A DNA stretch of 64,000 nucleotides from Neelides folsomi (Eukaryota; Arthropoda; Collembola; Neelipleona; Neelidae), in assembly GCA_034687125.1 (NCBI GenBank), contig JAQGBZ010000133.1, forward strand, positions 94,607 to 158,606. Direction: 5' to 3'. Both the position numbers and the translations under genes were made by a program. The notes below the pieces were generated by a model. The model was not told where the DNA came from, searched no databases, and saw only the letters and a program-made list of their open reading frames with translations. Positions 44,226 through 64,000 of the stretch are shown piece by piece; position 1 is the stretch's first letter, and each line of letters opens with the position of its first letter.

Positions 44226-45696
44226 TTAAAACTTTAATACCAAATAACTTCCAGTGTTTTCAGCACAAAAGGCCAACAACGAATTGTAACTTTCTTTGCT
44301 GAAATAGAAAAAATCCCAGAATGGGAATTTCATTTCCAATGTTGCGGATCTTAAGGCTTTTAAATATTTCACACGCTTTTTAATCTCAGGAGTCCATTCA
44401 TTTTTCAAAGCAAGAATTCTCAGTTCATATTCAAAAAATTTCCTCTTAAATTCAAGGGATTTTCCCCAAATTTCACCAATCATTCGGTACCCCAAAGTCA
44501 TGACAATGACATTTACCGTGAAGATATAAATTATAACCATGATATGAAAAAGATTAAGTTGTGAATAATATTTAATTAAAATAACCGGTACTGAAATCAT
44601 TATATACGATAAAATCAACAAATTTAAAGAAAAAATAGCCTTAATATAACCAAAAAGTGACCCGTATATAATCAATAGACATATGTAAATATCAAACCCC
44701 TTCCTTCGTTCGGTGTTGTCAGTTAATCTAGCAAAAAAATATTTTATAAATTTTATTAAAATATTCGAATTATTGATTTTATTAGTTTATATAATAATTC
44801 AATTTAAGATAACTAATCATTAATTCGTTATTAAAGTGATAATTAAATTGTAATTACCTCTCCAACTTTTTCATTATTTTTATAATAGCCAAGGCAAATC
44901 CACTTAGAAAAAACAAAACGAATTGAAGTAAAAACCCTAAGCATATATTCGAATATGTTTCACTAATCCAAATGATGGCGCATAAATAAAAATATTCATA
45001 TTGGTATATAACATAAAAAACATTTGCTGAATGATCAATGAATGAGGATAAAGATGAAACAATACAAATGAAAGTTGTTAATTTTCGAAATATAAGTGAA
45101 GGAAATTCAAGTCCATCTGTGAAATTGCTTTGGTTTAATCGGAAAAATTCACCTGTAATTTTAAAATCAAAATTGAAAAGTATTTTATCAAAATTTCATT
45201 AATTATTTTATTAAATTATAGATTATTAATAGTTATTTTAATAAATTTATTAATTATTAATTAAATTCAATCTATTAAATTCAATCTACTAAATAAATTT
45301 TGATTAAATTAAATTTATTAAATTTTGGATGTTTCATATACGAGTGATTTTAATAAGTGAAGTGATCCATTGAAAGGAAATGTAAAAATCCTCGTGAACA
45401 ATAAACAAAATTGAAGCGTAAAAGTGAAATGTAAACGTTATAGCATATGAAAATCCCATCCACAATTTTAAAATTTTGGTAGAATTATGGTGGTAAATGT
45501 AGTTGTATGCGAGGACTAAAATGCTTGAAATTCTAATTTGAGCTATAATGAACAAGGAAATGTAAAATATCATATTTCGATATTTGCTCGGCAATAATTT
45601 GCATCCTGATTTATCCCATTTCCATGGGATGGAAAACAAGTTTGAAAGAATAGAAAGGAAATAATTAACATTATTAGATGTTTTTATTGACAGCAT
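44226..45696 (-). CDS. gustatory-receptor-family chemoreceptor, 383 aa
   Basis: Three exons on the minus strand join in phase: 45696-45342, 45152-44858, 44727-44226, for 1152 nt including the stop. The protein is very hydrophobic, with about seven membrane segments (for example YISLFIIAQIRISSILVLAY and ICLGFLLQFVLFFLSGFALA). It has an N-terminal PWKWDKSGCKLLPSKYR loop and a C-terminal end CAENTGSYLVLKF, resembling the insect Gr tail signature TYhhhhhQF. The 383-aa length is normal for arthropod gustatory receptors, which are seven-helix ligand-gated cation channels with intracellular N-termini. The introns are phase 1 and phase 2, unlike the phase-0 introns common in insect Gr genes. It appears intact. 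The subfamily and ligand cannot be told. Confidence 0.8.
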
Positions 45697-46416
45697 TTTA
45701 TAAATGGCAATGAATGTTAATGTTATTTAAAATACGGAATGGCAATATTTCTAATAAATATACTATAATCGGTTATTTGATTATTTGCAAAATTAAAATC
45801 CATAAAAATTCGAAATTAAATTAAAATCAATTTCGATATAATTGAAATTTGAAATGTTTCAGTTTTATTATGCATCATGTTCATGTCATTTGGGCAGAAC
45901 TTAATAATTCATTTAAAAAATCATATTTTATTAATACTAATTTTCAATTATATGTTCAATCACTGCTCCCAGAACTCAAAACAATAAATGTAAATTTTGC
46001 AACTTATTCAATATCAATTTAAGTAACGAGGTGGTTTAGTTAGCTAAGAGCCTTCCACTTACGATTATCAAACATCCAAGTGTAATAATTAATAATGTAA
46101 ACTGGGAGGGAAATCAATGGGAAAGGTTATCCTTTAAAAATGAAATGTCAATGCTTTCAAATTGAAAATTGTTAAAACTTAATATTTATTTCAATGTTGT
46201 TTAAAATAAATATGATATGAGTAGTTAGCTCTCGCTAGAAGTCTAATGAACAAGGTTTTTTAACATTTTATATATTGTACTATAACATATATTTGTTAAT
46301 CCCTTTTATTAAAAAGTATATTTAAAATTTCCATATTCATTTATTTTCTATTTTAAAATTGTAAAATAATAAATATTTAGAATGAATGGTTTACTGATTT
46401 ACTGTATTCATATTAG
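45697..46416. other. intergenic DNA between the chemoreceptor and the orphan kinase exon
   Basis: AT-rich. It must contain the chemoreceptor's promoter. I find no upstream kinase exon here to go with the fragment at 46417. A short tRNA-like stretch near 46030-46075 lacks the second half of a tRNA. Confidence 0.5.
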
Positions 46417-46525
46417 GTATAATTTAATTAAACATTGCTGGGAAGTTAATGCTGGCGATCGCCCAACATTTTCCGAAATTTTAGTTTGCATTGAAAATAA
46501 AATAGCTGCAGAAAAAGTCCAATGA
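46417..46525 (+). pseudogene. orphan C-terminal exon of a receptor tyrosine kinase
   Basis: After a TATTAG acceptor the frame reads YNLIKHCWEVNAGDRPTF, then SEILVCIENKIAAEKVQ and a stop at 46523-46525. The CW...RPTF.EI pattern is kinase subdomain XI, with the invariant Arg of the C-lobe. No other kinase exon precedes it within at least 10 kb on this strand, and the next gene upstream runs the other way. It cannot be the last exon of the kinase that starts at 59.2 kb. It is most likely the remnant of a duplicated and rearranged relative of that gene. Confidence 0.75.
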
Positions 46526-46839
46526 AATTAATCGTAGATAAATTAACGAGTATATTTCCAATAATTTATTTAATATTTTTAATTATAATTAAGTTAAAGT
46601 ACAGAGATTTTACAATAATTGTAAATAATAATTAATGTCAATTATATAAATACTTTCTGTAATTCTATCAATTATAATTTTTAAATAAATATTGTCCTCT
46701 TCATTATGTTTACATGTTATATCTGAGATTTTATCTACAATCGGGATAAGAATTGGGATAAGACATGCTATTTATATAAAATTAATCTAGAGTTTTGAAA
46801 TTTTGACAATATTACTTACTTCTTTAATACTTTGATACA

Positions 46840-58525: not shown

Positions 58526-59209
58526 TAGTTATTATTCTTATTATCATTGCCGCATACTTCCGTATGATTCCGTATGCTTCCTGTAAACATGAGAGCATAA
58601 AGGCTTTGCTTCGTAGCATCATGAGAGTATGAGATCATGATAGCATATGAATAATATAATTAAAGCTACCTATATATAAAATATGAAATGATATATGACC
58701 TACTTTATTGAATATATTTCATTCAGTATTCATTATTTCATATTTTAATTTTTAACCGTGACCATTAAATGTCTATTTTAAGATTTATAGCTAATTTCTA
58801 TCAATAATTTTAGATAAAGGCTAAAATTTTGAGCAACCACTTAGCAAATATAATTATCCTTATGTGCATCATAACAAAATTCATATAAGGAAATATTGAT
58901 TTAAGAATTATTACTTAGAAATTAATAATAATTCCTTCATTGTGACGGCTTTAGCAAAAAAATAAATTTATTTTCCCCATAACACAATTCTGTTTTCCTT
59001 CTCAAATAAGGACATTTAAATTATTAAAAAAATTGGAAATGTACCAATGTTTCGCGCATTTTAATTACATCGTTAAAGTTAGAGAGAATAAATTGGAGGA
59101 AAAAAATTTTCAATTCCCAAATAAAAATTAACAAAATACTATTACAAAATATTTGATTCTTTAATTGGAATTTAATGATTTTTGTACTGCACGTGTGAAA
59201 CACATAAAC
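58526..59209. other. AT-rich DNA upstream of the receptor kinase
   Basis: A short patch at 58545-58660 repeats CCGTATG/ATGAGAG words. The rest is AT-rich. The receptor kinase promoter must lie near its right edge; no convincing TATA box was seen. Confidence 0.45.
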
Positions 59210-62200
59210 ATGTCAGTTTTATTTTATTTACTTTTTTTTGAATTTGCCGCTCGTAGAATAATTGGAATTGAAGAAAAATGTTTATTTCAAAATGCCACAA
59301 CATTCAGATCAAAATGCGGCTGGGAAAAGATCAATTTAGTTGAATGTCAAAATCTCAGCTGTTGCTATGACGATAATGAAAATCCTTCTTGTTTCTATGA
59401 AAACTTTCAATTTGAAGAAAATCCAATCAGATCCACAAATCAAATAAATAAAAGTGAATATAAAATGTGTGATTTTCAAAAACCGCTTATAAATCGAACC
59501 AAATGCGGCTCAAGTGGAAGAACTCAAAATGAATGCGAAAACGACAATTGCTGCTTTGACAACAGCTACACAAATGCACACAATTGTTTCAAGAATTCTC
59601 TAAGAAATGAAATTTGCGAAGATTGCAAATTGCTTCGGACCGTAAATGGTAATTGCTACTTTGGAAATCCTTCCTTGGTCAGACAGGATTGTGGATGGCC
59701 AGGAATTTCAAAAACCTCATGTGAAAACCGAGGTTGTTGCTATGACGATCATTATAAGAACAGGAGATTTTGTTTTAAAACAAATATAGAACATAAATTG
59801 GAAGATCCGTTCATTTTGCCTTTTGTTGGAATTCCTTTTAATAAACAGATCATTGAATATCCCCAAAACAGAAGATTCATTTATTATTCTTCCGAGGATG
59901 ACAATAAAAATTATTTGGGAATGAAGAATAAACTTGATAAAATTAAATTAATTTTGGAAAATCATGACAATTTGAAAAGTTCTAAAATTTTTGAAAATAT
60001 TTATAATGTCGATCAAAACCCAATTGTGTTGGCAATGAAATTAACGGAATTGAACATTACCAGAGATTTAATTAAGAATGGAATTGGATTAAATAAAATT
60101 GATAAATATAATTTAAATCCCTTCCACTACGCTTCCTATTTTGGATATTCTGACATTTTGGAATTGCTAATGGTAACTCCAAATCAGAATCTAAATTCTG
60201 CGGATTACAAGAAAATGACCCCGCTTCTTCAAAAGGTCACGCTGATATTGTCAAATTAATAATTGACGCAAAAGTCGATTTGAATGCTTTAAATTCAAAC
60301 GATTGGACTTCGCTTCATTTAGCTGTATCTAAAGGTCATTTTGAAATTGTAAAATTGCTAATCACCCACAATGCCAGAATAAACACAGTTGATAAAAATG
60401 GATGGACTTTACTACACGAAGCAAGCTACTATGGCCACGAACAAATTGTATTGTTTCTATTAGATAAAGATTTAAAAACAAATTCAGTTGATCTCAGCAA
60501 AAATTCGCCGCTAAATTCTGCGACATCCCAAGGTAAAAACAAAGTAGTCAAAATATTGCTACAAAACGACGCCATTCTTTCAAAATCCGATATTGAAAAT
60601 GGAATTCCTTTAAGATTGGCATTGAAATCCGGCGAGATTGAAATTTTACAAATATTGAAGGATCAAGGTGCGGATTTTAATATAATTACGAAAAATAATA
60701 AAGAATCCAAATACACCCCATTGCATATTGCCATTTCAAATAAACAAACCGAAGCTGCAGAATTTCTGGTTGAAAACGGTGCAAATGTAAATGCCCGAGA
60801 TTCAACTTTACAAACTCCTTTGCATTTGGCAGCCAAATTGGGAAACGAACAAATTTCAAGTTTGCTAATTGAAAGAGGAGCCAATGTAAACGACATAGAC
60901 AATGAGCAAACAACTCCGTTATTTTTTGCTTCATTGAACGGCTATTTGAAAGTCGTCCAGCTTTTGCTCAATCACAGTGCGGATGTAAACGTTGTTGAGA
61001 CTAAATACCAATATACGGCTCTATACATTGCTGTAAAAAAAAATTTCATCCAAATTGCAAAATTGCTTCTTGATGAAGGAGCGAATATAGAAGCCAAATC
61101 AAATTTATTAAAGACTTCATTGTACACTGCAGTTGAAGAAGGTAATTTTGAAATGGTTCAACTTTTGACCGAAAAGGGGGCCAATTTAAATGCGCAAGAT
61201 GTAGACGATTGGACGCCTTTGTTCAGAGCATCACTTAATGGGAATATAAACATTGCTAGATATCTTTTGGAAAAGAAGGCTGACGTAAATTTGGTGAATC
61301 GCGATTTCAAATCGCCGTTGCAAATATCTTCTCAAAAAGGACATTATCAAATTGTCCTTTTGTTGCTTGAGGCCAATGCCCATGTTAATGCTTACAATAA
61401 CAATCACAGGACTGCTTTGCATCAAGCGGCTCAACAAGGCTATTTAAACATTGTGGAATTGCTGCTTGCCAAAGGCGCCGATATCGATGCAGTCGACAAA
61501 GATGATTGGACAGCTTTGTATTATGCAATAGACGAAGGCCATTCTGAGATAGTCATTTTCTTAATAAAAAAAAAGGCTGCCGTGGATTTGTTAGATAACA
61601 TAAATCGCTCTCCGCTCTATTTATCTTTGGCAGTAAAACAGGCGAATATTGCGAGAGCTATTTTGAAGAGAAATCCAAATGTCAATACTATAAGAAGGGA
61701 CTATAATTTGACTCCTTTGCATCTCGCATCCGGCAATGGCTATCAAGATATTGTGGAAATTCTCCTAAAACTAAATTGTGCCAATATCAATTACGTTGAT
61801 TCTAAACTATGGTCTGCGCTGCACAAAGCAGCAAATGCTGGTCACAAACAAATAGTTCAGATTCTCATATCAAACAATGCAAGCTTAAATGTTATTCAAG
61901 AAGATCATAAAACCGCGTTGTTTCTTGCAGTTTCAAACAAACACCTCGAAGTCGCCGGTTTGTTGTTGAAAGTTCCAGGGATTGAGGTGAACACAAAAAT
62001 AAAAGACTCAAATTTTACTCCTTTGATGGAAGCAGTTTTTAATGAGAATTTGGCAATGGTCAAATTATTATTCGAATATCAAGTTGAAATTAATAATTTT
62101 GATAATAGAAATTTTACTTCTTTATATCACGCAGTAAAAAACGGGAATATTGACATGATTGAATTATTGTTGGAAAAAGAAGCCAAAGTTGATGTTTTTG

Positions 62201-64000
62201 ACCAAAATAGGAAAAGCCCTTTATTTCTTGCTGTTTCAAATGGAAATGTTCAAATTGTTGAAATGTTGCTGAACAAATCGGCTGATGTAAATGCTGCAGA
62301 AAAGGAAAAACATTTCACGCCGTTGATCGAAGCCGTAAACAAAAATAAATTTGAAATCGTGAAAATATTATTGCAGCGTGGAGCGAGTCTTAGTATCCTT
62401 TCGAACCAAAAATCATCGGCGCTTCATTTAGCAGCCAATGGGAATTATTTAGACACTGGAAAATTGTTATTGAACCATGGAGCAAAAATCGACCAAGCTG
62501 ACGAGAAAGGAAGAACTCCTTTGCATTTGGCGGCAAACAAAGGGAATTTTGAATTTATCAAGATGCTGTTGGAATTTAATGCAAGCATCGTTTTGCTCGA
62601 TATAGATAATCACACAGCTCAAGATTTGGCCGAAATCCATGGAAATCAACAACTTTCTTATTTTTTGCAGAATTTTCGTAAAGAACCTAAAATAAATGCA
62701 ATTCTGGAAAAATCTCAAATTTCTCAAGCTACAATTATTGGAATTGTCTTGTCAACGGCTGCCGTTATATTGGTCCTTTTGTGCGTCATCATTTTTCTTA
62801 TGATAAAATATAAGAGAAAAAGTCGAGAATTGAAGAGATTTTTAAATGAGGATGAAATTAAGGAATTCATCGAAGGAGAAAAAATATATTGTTCAATTGG
62901 AAATGAAGAATCGCAAGTTTTCAAATATAACAATAATTATGAAGTGAAAAGAGACGAGCTTATTATCGGTAAAAATTTTATTTATAATTTTTCAAAAAAA
63001 TATTAACAACATATATCCTAGGCTTAAAAAATTGTATGATTGAATTAATTTACTAACAATTAATTTATTCAAAATAAATTATTTGGTGAAATTTAAAATT
63101 TATATTTTAAATTTAGGAAAAACAATTCTAGGAAGTGGAAATTTTGGAATGGTTTTAAGTGGATTTGTCAAAACAAACGAAGGAGATGTTGAAGTTGCAA
63201 TCAAAGTTGTAAAATCGGGTGTCGAACTTGTCCAAATAAAAGCTCTTTTAGATGAATTAAAAATAATGTCTACGATTGGAAAACACGAAAATATAGTTTC
63301 GCTTATTGGCGCTTGTACTGAAAAGATCGAAACAAGTTAACTCAAAAACATAAACTAGAAAAAAATACTAAAATATTATTTTCTATTAATTAAAATATAA
63401 AACTTTAAAAAATAAAAATTTTCAGATGAAGTGTACGTCGCCGTTGAATTTTGTTTGAAAGGAAATATGTTGAAAATTTTATTGTCAATGAACAAAAACT
63501 TTTGTTTCATAACGGTTAACAAGAAAACAGTTTCAAATGATTATGAGAATCTTGCAATGCAATTACAAATTATAAAACTCAAAAAATTTTAAATATTAAT
63601 TAAAATATTAATTAAAATATTTAAGATTTAAATGGTATTTTAAATTCTTTCAAAATTTTATAATTTAGCAATAAAAATCCAATCGAAGTTTTAAGTCAAT
63701 TGATGAAATGGTCTTTTGAAATTGTTAACGGAATGGAATTTCTTAGTAAAAATAAGGTAGTAAACATAAACCTATTTTGTATTTAAATCAAATTATCAAT
63801 ATTTTTAAAATATTATTAACACTTAAAATTAAATTTATTAATGAAAAAAAAGATTTTTATCTTATATATATAAATTAAATTTATACATTATTATAGATTG
63901 TCCATTGTGATCTAGCGGCAAGAAATGTTTTATTGACTTCTGCAAATAAAGCTAAAATTTGCGACTTTGGATTATCGCGACAATTATTTGAAGACGCAAC
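59210..64000 (+). CDS. trefoil/ankyrin-repeat receptor tyrosine kinase, cut by the window end and carrying one frame disruption
   Basis: ATG 59210 begins a hydrophobic leader ([19 protein letters not shown]). Three P-type trefoil domains follow at residues 24-62, 87-127 and 149-189, each with all six cysteines. Then come a polar linker, about 25 ankyrin repeats (to about 62,690), a membrane helix at 62728-62808 ([20 protein letters not shown]), a stop-transfer stretch KYKRKSR, a juxtamembrane segment and a kinase domain. Leader to juxtamembrane is one exon (59210-62968). Kinase exons are 63117-63335, 63426 to about 63483, 63669-63756 and 63897 onward. Visible kinase motifs are [27 protein letters not shown] and DFG. 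The AAR-N loop marks a tyrosine kinase. The frame shifts once at about 60215-60240. The third kinase exon's donor is uncertain: a frame to 63591 stays open without a donor. The ligand is unknown. Confidence 0.85.
60215..60240 (+). other. frame disruption inside the ankyrin region
   Basis: The upstream frame reads through MTPLLQKV and stops at 60257-60259. The downstream frame is open from before 60199 and reads [16 protein letters not shown]. Ankyrin repeats normally run TPLhhAsxxGHxxIVxLL, so the true junction is within [12 protein letters not shown]. The simplest reading is a loss of a few bases around CTTCTTCAAAAGG. No GT-AG intron fits. It may be a genuine lesion, an allele or an assembly error. 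Confidence 0.75.

Follow-up and report, generated by a model that had tools for sequence, protein, structure and literature searches.

Can trefoil domains, a long ankyrin stack and a tyrosine kinase belong to one receptor? The question is raised by a locus at the 3′ end of the window, the stretch of 64,000 nucleotides analysed here, which covers bases 94607–158606 of contig C133 in the Neelides folsomi assembly (75.1 Mb, 840 contigs). A preliminary description of this DNA had proposed a receptor tyrosine kinase (RTK) of a new class, with the ankyrin repeats outside the cell. The locus is probably a damaged member of a lineage-specific RTK family in which a variable ankyrin domain outside the cell serves recognition.

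Architecture and the gene family

Three complete trefoil domains, as described, are present in the window (PF00088, E 1.2e-22, 80 bits against a cut-off of 21, three stretches). Six cysteines are counted by eye in each, as in a trefoil domain. About 25 ankyrin repeats had been claimed, and 25 are detected by an iterated hidden Markov model (HMM), one ahead of a frame break and 24 beyond it (PF12796, E 1.8e-154). The predicted membrane helix with its basic stop-transfer is also borne out: by hydropathy it is the only strong one, lies between ankyrins and kinase and is followed by basic residues. The ankyrin stack is placed, as the preliminary description had it, on the trefoil side of the sole strong membrane helix, and would be displayed at the cell surface. 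Two features are present in part. The N-terminus reads as a presumed signal peptide but is moderately hydrophobic, no 19-residue window reaching 1.6. The tyrosine kinase domain is represented by an N-lobe exon and a catalytic-loop exon and is cut off by the contig end. The same Pfam domains are found in four intact paralogues. No immunoglobulin (Ig) family is matched by Pfam in the ectodomains of the window and these four copies; only trefoil and ankyrin-type families exceed the cut-off.

The combination recurs. Genome-wide, PF00088 gives 66 matches in 29 groups, 20 of them with at least two trefoils and 17 with three. A kinase exon lies downstream, 3.5–10 kb away, at 16 of the 17 three-trefoil loci (46 places taken from 132 genome kinase matches were used for this count). 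At 15 loci it is a kinase C-lobe exon on the same strand; at C358 it is an N-lobe exon instead. The distance is 10 kb at C699. C148 is the only three-trefoil locus without a kinase exon downstream. Trefoil triplet and kinase exon recur in this order beyond chance.

Thirteen loci were read in detail, 12 of them fetched and the window added. In nine, one open exon runs from the N-terminus through the membrane helix to the juxtamembrane segment (C449, C532b, C563a, C206, C632, C360, C756, C454 and C358). Ankyrin repeats detected in these intact paralogues by the iterated HMM are 14–28 in number (n = 9), so that repeat number has changed within the family. An N-terminal window with hydropathy of at least 1.6 is present in four of the nine (C449, C454, C563a, C756); N-termini of the other five are shorter in their hydrophobic part, by eye. 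In each copy a single stretch exceeds 2.5 hydropathy. It separates the ankyrins from the kinase, and basic residues come next. As gene models, the paralogues have the predicted architecture of an RTK: signal peptide, ectodomain, one membrane helix and kinase. Several paralogues are clustered on short contigs, three on C532 and two on C563.

Ankyrin stacks joined to a kinase are also seen without a detected trefoil, at C682 and C639 (L064). The loci on C682 are C682:13500-18850 (L068) and C682:6516-10072, and this contig carries frames of 1475 and 1495 amino acids. The C639 locus is truncated by the contig start and has a frame change inside.

Kinase

The kinase resembles a known type, that of KIT, VEGFR and PDGFR (classes III and V). 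When the spliced C-lobe is compared with solved structures by phmmer, the best matches, among the best 60 of 791, are KIT, VEGFR2 and PDGFR chains, after an odd top chain labelled EGFR. RET and FLT3 are likewise among the matches listed. The claim of a new receptor class is to be divided: the architecture is that of a recurrent family and not a one-off, but its kinase belongs to a known type. An old receptor kinase serves as the chassis, and the novelty lies in the ectodomain.

Glycine loop, VAIK lysine, catalytic-loop aspartate and DFG are present in the alignment rows. Exceptions are the HRD arginine, replaced group-wide, the DFG aspartate, replaced in C375, and the glycine loop of C532b, which is altered. 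The catalytic loop is of non-RD type: HRD is found in none of the 21 group loci read, including the window at 63897-63926. The variants are HCD in most, YCD in C532b, HAD in C803 and C541, and HGD in C15.

The kinase tree contains 31 rows, each of at least 120 residues, out of 32; the short C358 row was dropped, and one locus is entered twice (L006, L069). The whole receptor group is split (support 0.99) from nine other kinase loci, named by eye as EGFR, Eph, Src, Csk, ROS, ROR-like and FGFR/VEGFR-like. Inside the group, the trefoil-ankyrin receptors are set apart (support 0.99) from the Ig-type loci C15 and C314 and the GH17-like loci C803 and C541, which branch outside them. C454 groups with C348, the second C206 locus, C614 and the ankyrin-only C682.

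These relatives carry other ectodomains. That of C15 matches Ig_3 (E 3.2e-07), and the Ig match of C314 is below the cut-off; their kinases are near the trefoil-ankyrin receptors but outside them in the tree, with an Ig ectodomain instead, and no trefoil or ankyrin repeat was seen in the short stretches read.

Two related receptor kinases, L065 (C803:6300-11754) and L069 (C541:29500-34288), have an ectodomain resembling glycosyl hydrolase family 17 (GH17), unusual on an animal receptor kinase. The GH17 match of C803 is 29.1 bits against a cut-off of 28.2; C541 has no such Pfam match, the likeness being seen by eye. L066 (C348), L067 (C206:92500-97900) and L070 (C614) have a long, unassigned ectodomain with a recurrent CxSxTPxxW-like motif, also seen by eye. 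C348 carries in addition a sub-threshold Ig match.

Selection and variable positions

Kinase exons are conserved between close copies, with a pooled ratio of nonsynonymous to synonymous differences (pN/pS) of 0.17, indicating purifying selection (five copies, 10 pairs; exon 6 in four, C756 being without one exon; window left out). For trefoils and ankyrins, substitution-rate ratios (dN/dS) come from seven closely related loci: five are complete, one is partial, and the window enters as two separate fragments. Trefoil values are 0.19–0.39. Ankyrin values are 0.34–0.58, or 0.20–0.79 in comparisons with the 36-codon window fragment.

Ankyrin change is unevenly placed along the repeat. Positions 2, 3, 5, 13, 14, 26 and 33, which we take to be those randomised in libraries of designed ankyrin repeat proteins (DARPins), have pN 0.154 and pS 0.183 in the seven loci. 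The remaining 26 positions have pN 0.071 and pS 0.193. Six convex-side positions taken to be exposed have pN 0.079 and pS 0.181. The ratio is 0.84 (95% bootstrap interval 0.65–1.09) in the DARPin set versus 0.37 (0.31–0.43) at the other positions, and random sets of seven of the 33 positions are as high with p 0.0001. With C563a as the reference the values are 0.85 (0.64–1.13) versus 0.37, p 0.00018. Repeat counts differ between the two methods: 27 and 29 were anchored by the positional scan, against 25 and 28 detected by the iterated HMM. Positions 26 and 33 are not raised singly (0.091 and 0.081). Position 10, presumably on the groove side, is high (0.165/0.138) and was spotted post hoc. Amino-acid change is thus in excess on the predicted binding face and not at the convex positions tested. 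Variation at target-binding positions fits binding of a ligand or pathogen, without proving it.

A separate gene, L074 (C235:38300-40300), carries highly regular ankyrin repeats in a frame of 1217 amino acids, possibly through recent expansion of the array.

The window copy

Trefoil part and ankyrin part of the window copy are in different frames (59165-60259 and 60154-63006). Alignment with the intact paralogues C532b, C563a, C632 and C756 (C360 was left unmatched) traces the frame break to the loss of exactly 10 bases at about 60222, bordered by a 3-base direct repeat. It looks like a slippage deletion and not a homopolymer error. The kinase consists of four exons, the final one incomplete because contig C133 ends within the catalytic exon, at base 64000, the final base of the window. 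In the part present, 34 of 34 residues are identical to the paralogue query. Owing to the deletion and the contig end, the window copy as assembled is unable to encode a continuous receptor, and it probably represents either a pseudogene or a null allele. Coordinates are given in Table 1.

A 3′ remnant of another copy lies about 12 kb upstream. It has a kinase-exon match at 46412-46522, and its DNA is about 92% identical to that at the 3′ ends of C756 and C532b. No remaining kinase exons of this copy were found in the window by tblastn with a kinase query. The sequence also records gene loss in the family.

The exon 1 donor of the window is at the same site as that used by C563a. The donor of kinase exon 3 was placed by eye in 11 of 13 loci, the exceptions being C206 and C454. 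It is GT in C639, C451, C375, C259 and C360, and GC in C449, C532b, C563a, C632, C756 and the window, where the intron at 63559-63668 is apparently GC-AG.

Table 1. Features of the receptor locus and of the upstream remnant (window positions)
Feature	Position	Strand	Basis
Start codon and presumed signal peptide	59210..59269 (end approximate)	+	By eye; hydrophobic N-termini ahead of trefoil 1 in paralogues
Trefoil domain 1	59303..59398	+	PF00088 match, C133:153909-154004
Trefoil domain 2	59492..59593	+	PF00088 match, C133:154098-154199
Trefoil domain 3	59672..59779	+	PF00088 match, C133:154278-154385
Ankyrin array, 25 repeats detected	60119..62589	+	Iterated ankyrin HMM; Pfam Ank_2
Point of 10-base deletion in early ankyrin repeat	60222..60223	+	DNA alignment with paralogues; frames
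Single membrane helix, then basic stop-transfer residues	62743..62799	+	Hydropathy
Exon 1, with frame break at 60222: ectodomain, membrane helix, juxtamembrane	59210..62968	+	GT donor at 62969, by eye
Exon 2: kinase N-lobe, GSGNFG loop and VAIK lysine	63117..63335	+	PF07714, E 1.4e-14
Exon 3, with GC donor in window copy: hinge and insert of the kinase	63426..63558	+	By eye
Exon 4: kinase segment ahead of catalytic loop	63669..63756	+	PF07714 weak, E 0.067, below cut-off
Exon 5, incomplete: catalytic loop (10 residues) and DFG, up to contig end	63897..64000	+	Paralogue match
Last kinase exon and 3′ flank, remnant of another copy	46288..46831	+	DNA identity

Weighing of the interpretation

Several findings weigh against a family of recognition receptors. 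The window copy is frameshifted, and with C451, C259 and C375 it makes four of 13 loci that are not open in one frame. In C375 the DFG aspartate is replaced. Supports inside the kinase tree are often low (0.17–0.93), and the trefoil-ankyrin receptors do not form one clade, so that exchange of ectodomains may have happened on more than one occasion. The ratio of 0.84 has an interval that includes 1 and is as compatible with relaxed constraint as with diversifying selection. A positional pass with the register off by two gave no excess (0.36 vs 0.41). Ankyrin repeats in general leave the DARPin-set positions free, and the unrelated C235 array also seems by eye to vary at them. In just two of ten sequences (C449, C454) is the number of sequons clearly higher than in shuffles. 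Cysteines are scarce in the ankyrin parts (0–0.76%), but the C235 array is equally poor (1 of 666); cysteine depletion was rejected as proof of extracellular ankyrins because this control is just as low.

An extracellular stack with a structural part to play (spacer, adhesion or homotypic contact) and no variable recognition surface is rather unlikely. Binding might then fall to the trefoils, the wide range of repeat number is spacer-like, and relaxed constraint is compatible with the data; against this, change is concentrated at concave positions and not at the six exposed convex ones, which is unexpected for a mere spacer.

It is unlikely that the family is simply decaying, a set mostly of pseudogenes without receptor function in which variation is merely relaxed. 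The broken frames of the window and three other loci, the lone 3′ remnant and a binding-face pN/pS not above 1 point in that direction. Constraint between copies argues otherwise, being evident in kinase and trefoils alike, as do the low ratio at the other ankyrin positions and the nine open ectodomain exons.

A pair of adjacent genes, one for a trefoil/ankyrin protein, secreted or in the membrane, and one for a separate kinase, would make the fusion only apparent. The window frameshift, falling between trefoils and ankyrins, agrees with this. The proposal is nevertheless very improbable in view of the nine loci with signal peptide to juxtamembrane segment in one open exon, of the kinase exon downstream of nearly every three-trefoil locus, and of C563a, in which all exon junctions are readable by eye and the juxtamembrane donor leads, with the phase kept, into the exon of the kinase glycine loop. 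One continuous receptor, as first proposed, is hence supported by the paralogues, while the window copy itself is frameshifted and truncated.

That the ankyrin part is cytosolic after all, by unusual topology or a cleaved N-terminus, is scarcely credible: ankyrin repeats are usually cytosolic, and the signal peptide is no more than moderately hydrophobic in the window and five of the nine intact paralogues, but six-cysteine trefoils lie on the same side as the ankyrins, the one segment above 2.5 hydropathy stands in every copy between ankyrins and kinase with basic residues after it, and the segments of 1.73–1.74 within the ankyrins of three copies are, by eye, ordinary ankyrin helices.

For the ankyrin part, descent from a bacterium or symbiont was also considered; a scan of genome contigs, which reaches close relatives only, gave 25 pattern matches, none of them an encoded relative.

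Comparison with known proteins

Class III/V RTKs (KIT, PDGFR, VEGFR; arthropod PVR) are like the present receptors in the C-lobe match, in the single membrane helix and in a kinase split by an insert in the region of exons 3 and 4. They are unlike in their extracellular Ig-like domains, of which the ectodomains scanned here show none, and in the catalytic loop, which is HCD here (YCD in C532b) instead of HRD.

Among solved structures, DARPins match the window's first ankyrin repeats best (best 60 of 316 matches). Variation in the family falls at the positions taken to be randomised in their libraries. The family differs in being natural, membrane-anchored and kinase-fused, with 14–28 repeats.

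Known trefoil (P-type) proteins are secreted peptides, zona proteins or glycosidases. The window likewise has three six-cysteine trefoils; we know of no trefoil protein fused to ankyrins and a kinase. Latrotoxins are soluble pore-forming toxins without trefoil or kinase. The window is unlike them, having trefoils ahead of the ankyrins (Pfam) plus a membrane helix, and is not of latrotoxin type. The latrotoxin alpha-LCT of widow spiders is described as a secreted protein that bears a signal peptide and has 22 ankyrin-like repeats, and latrotoxins as having helical head domains (PMC8630228).

No trefoil-ankyrin receptor kinase is named in the titles and abstract openings listed by the searches aimed at this architecture, which represent open literature with few subscription papers or preprints. 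Ectodomain shuffling is described in a survey of holozoan tyrosine kinomes (PMC8662651), in the main text of which the words 'ankyrin', 'trefoil' and 'arthropod' are absent. The words 'tyrosine', 'trefoil' and 'kinase' are absent from the main text of the Folsomia genome paper (PMC5490193).

Other features of the window and assembly

Exons of a multi-pass membrane protein with a terminal motif are read at 44226-45726 (minus strand) of the window, without a Pfam match at E 0.01. The terminal motif resembles, as we take it, that of arthropod gustatory receptors. A mitochondrial piece of the assembly has the order I-Q-M-nad2-W-C-Y-cox1-L2-cox2-K-D-atp8-atp6 (protein genes by eye). This is the ancestral pancrustacean order, and the position of trnL(UUR) between cox1 and cox2 is a pancrustacean trait; the gene order suggests Pancrustacea, and a tardigrade, considered at first, was rejected on this ground. 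Chitin_bind_4, the arthropod cuticle domain, has 39 genome matches; COX1, as a check on contamination, has one match in the assembly. DIOX_N has eight matches, the best of them an oxygenase not identifiable as isopenicillin N synthase, which speaks neither for nor against a springtail.

Proposed working and significance

On the preferred reading, that of a receptor family with a variable ankyrin recognition domain, the region would be a damaged member of a multigene, partly tandem pancrustacean RTK family. Kinase, membrane helix and juxtamembrane segment would derive from a KIT/VEGFR/PDGFR-type receptor, of which the arthropod counterpart would presumably be PVR. The usual Ig ectodomain would have been replaced by trefoils and the ankyrin repeats, in one large exon. 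The extracellular ankyrin solenoid would most likely bind a ligand via its concave face, and the trefoils may supply a second contact, perhaps with glycan, or spacing. Receptors brought together by clustering or dimerisation would trans-phosphorylate their kinases and so signal. What is recognised may be microbe, kin, food or host.

A further proposal is put forward tentatively, as possible but doubtful. The family may amount to a natural DARPin library, in which many genes of one pancrustacean lineage form a fast-reshaping repertoire of ankyrin solenoids displayed outside the cell and wired to a tyrosine kinase for variable recognition, with sister receptors that bear GH17-like or Ig ectodomains on the same chassis and with roles in innate immunity, kin recognition or food recognition.

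Ankyrin repeats are textbook cytosolic scaffolds. If the interpretation is true, the display of 14–28 of them outside the cell would add to the leucine-rich repeat type a further solenoid receptor for recognition in animals, and would give DARPins a naturally evolved precedent. Plant receptor kinases are likewise re-equipped with unrelated ectodomains on one chassis. Here a single kinase chassis would have been re-equipped with Ig, trefoil-ankyrin and GH17-like ectodomains in one genome.

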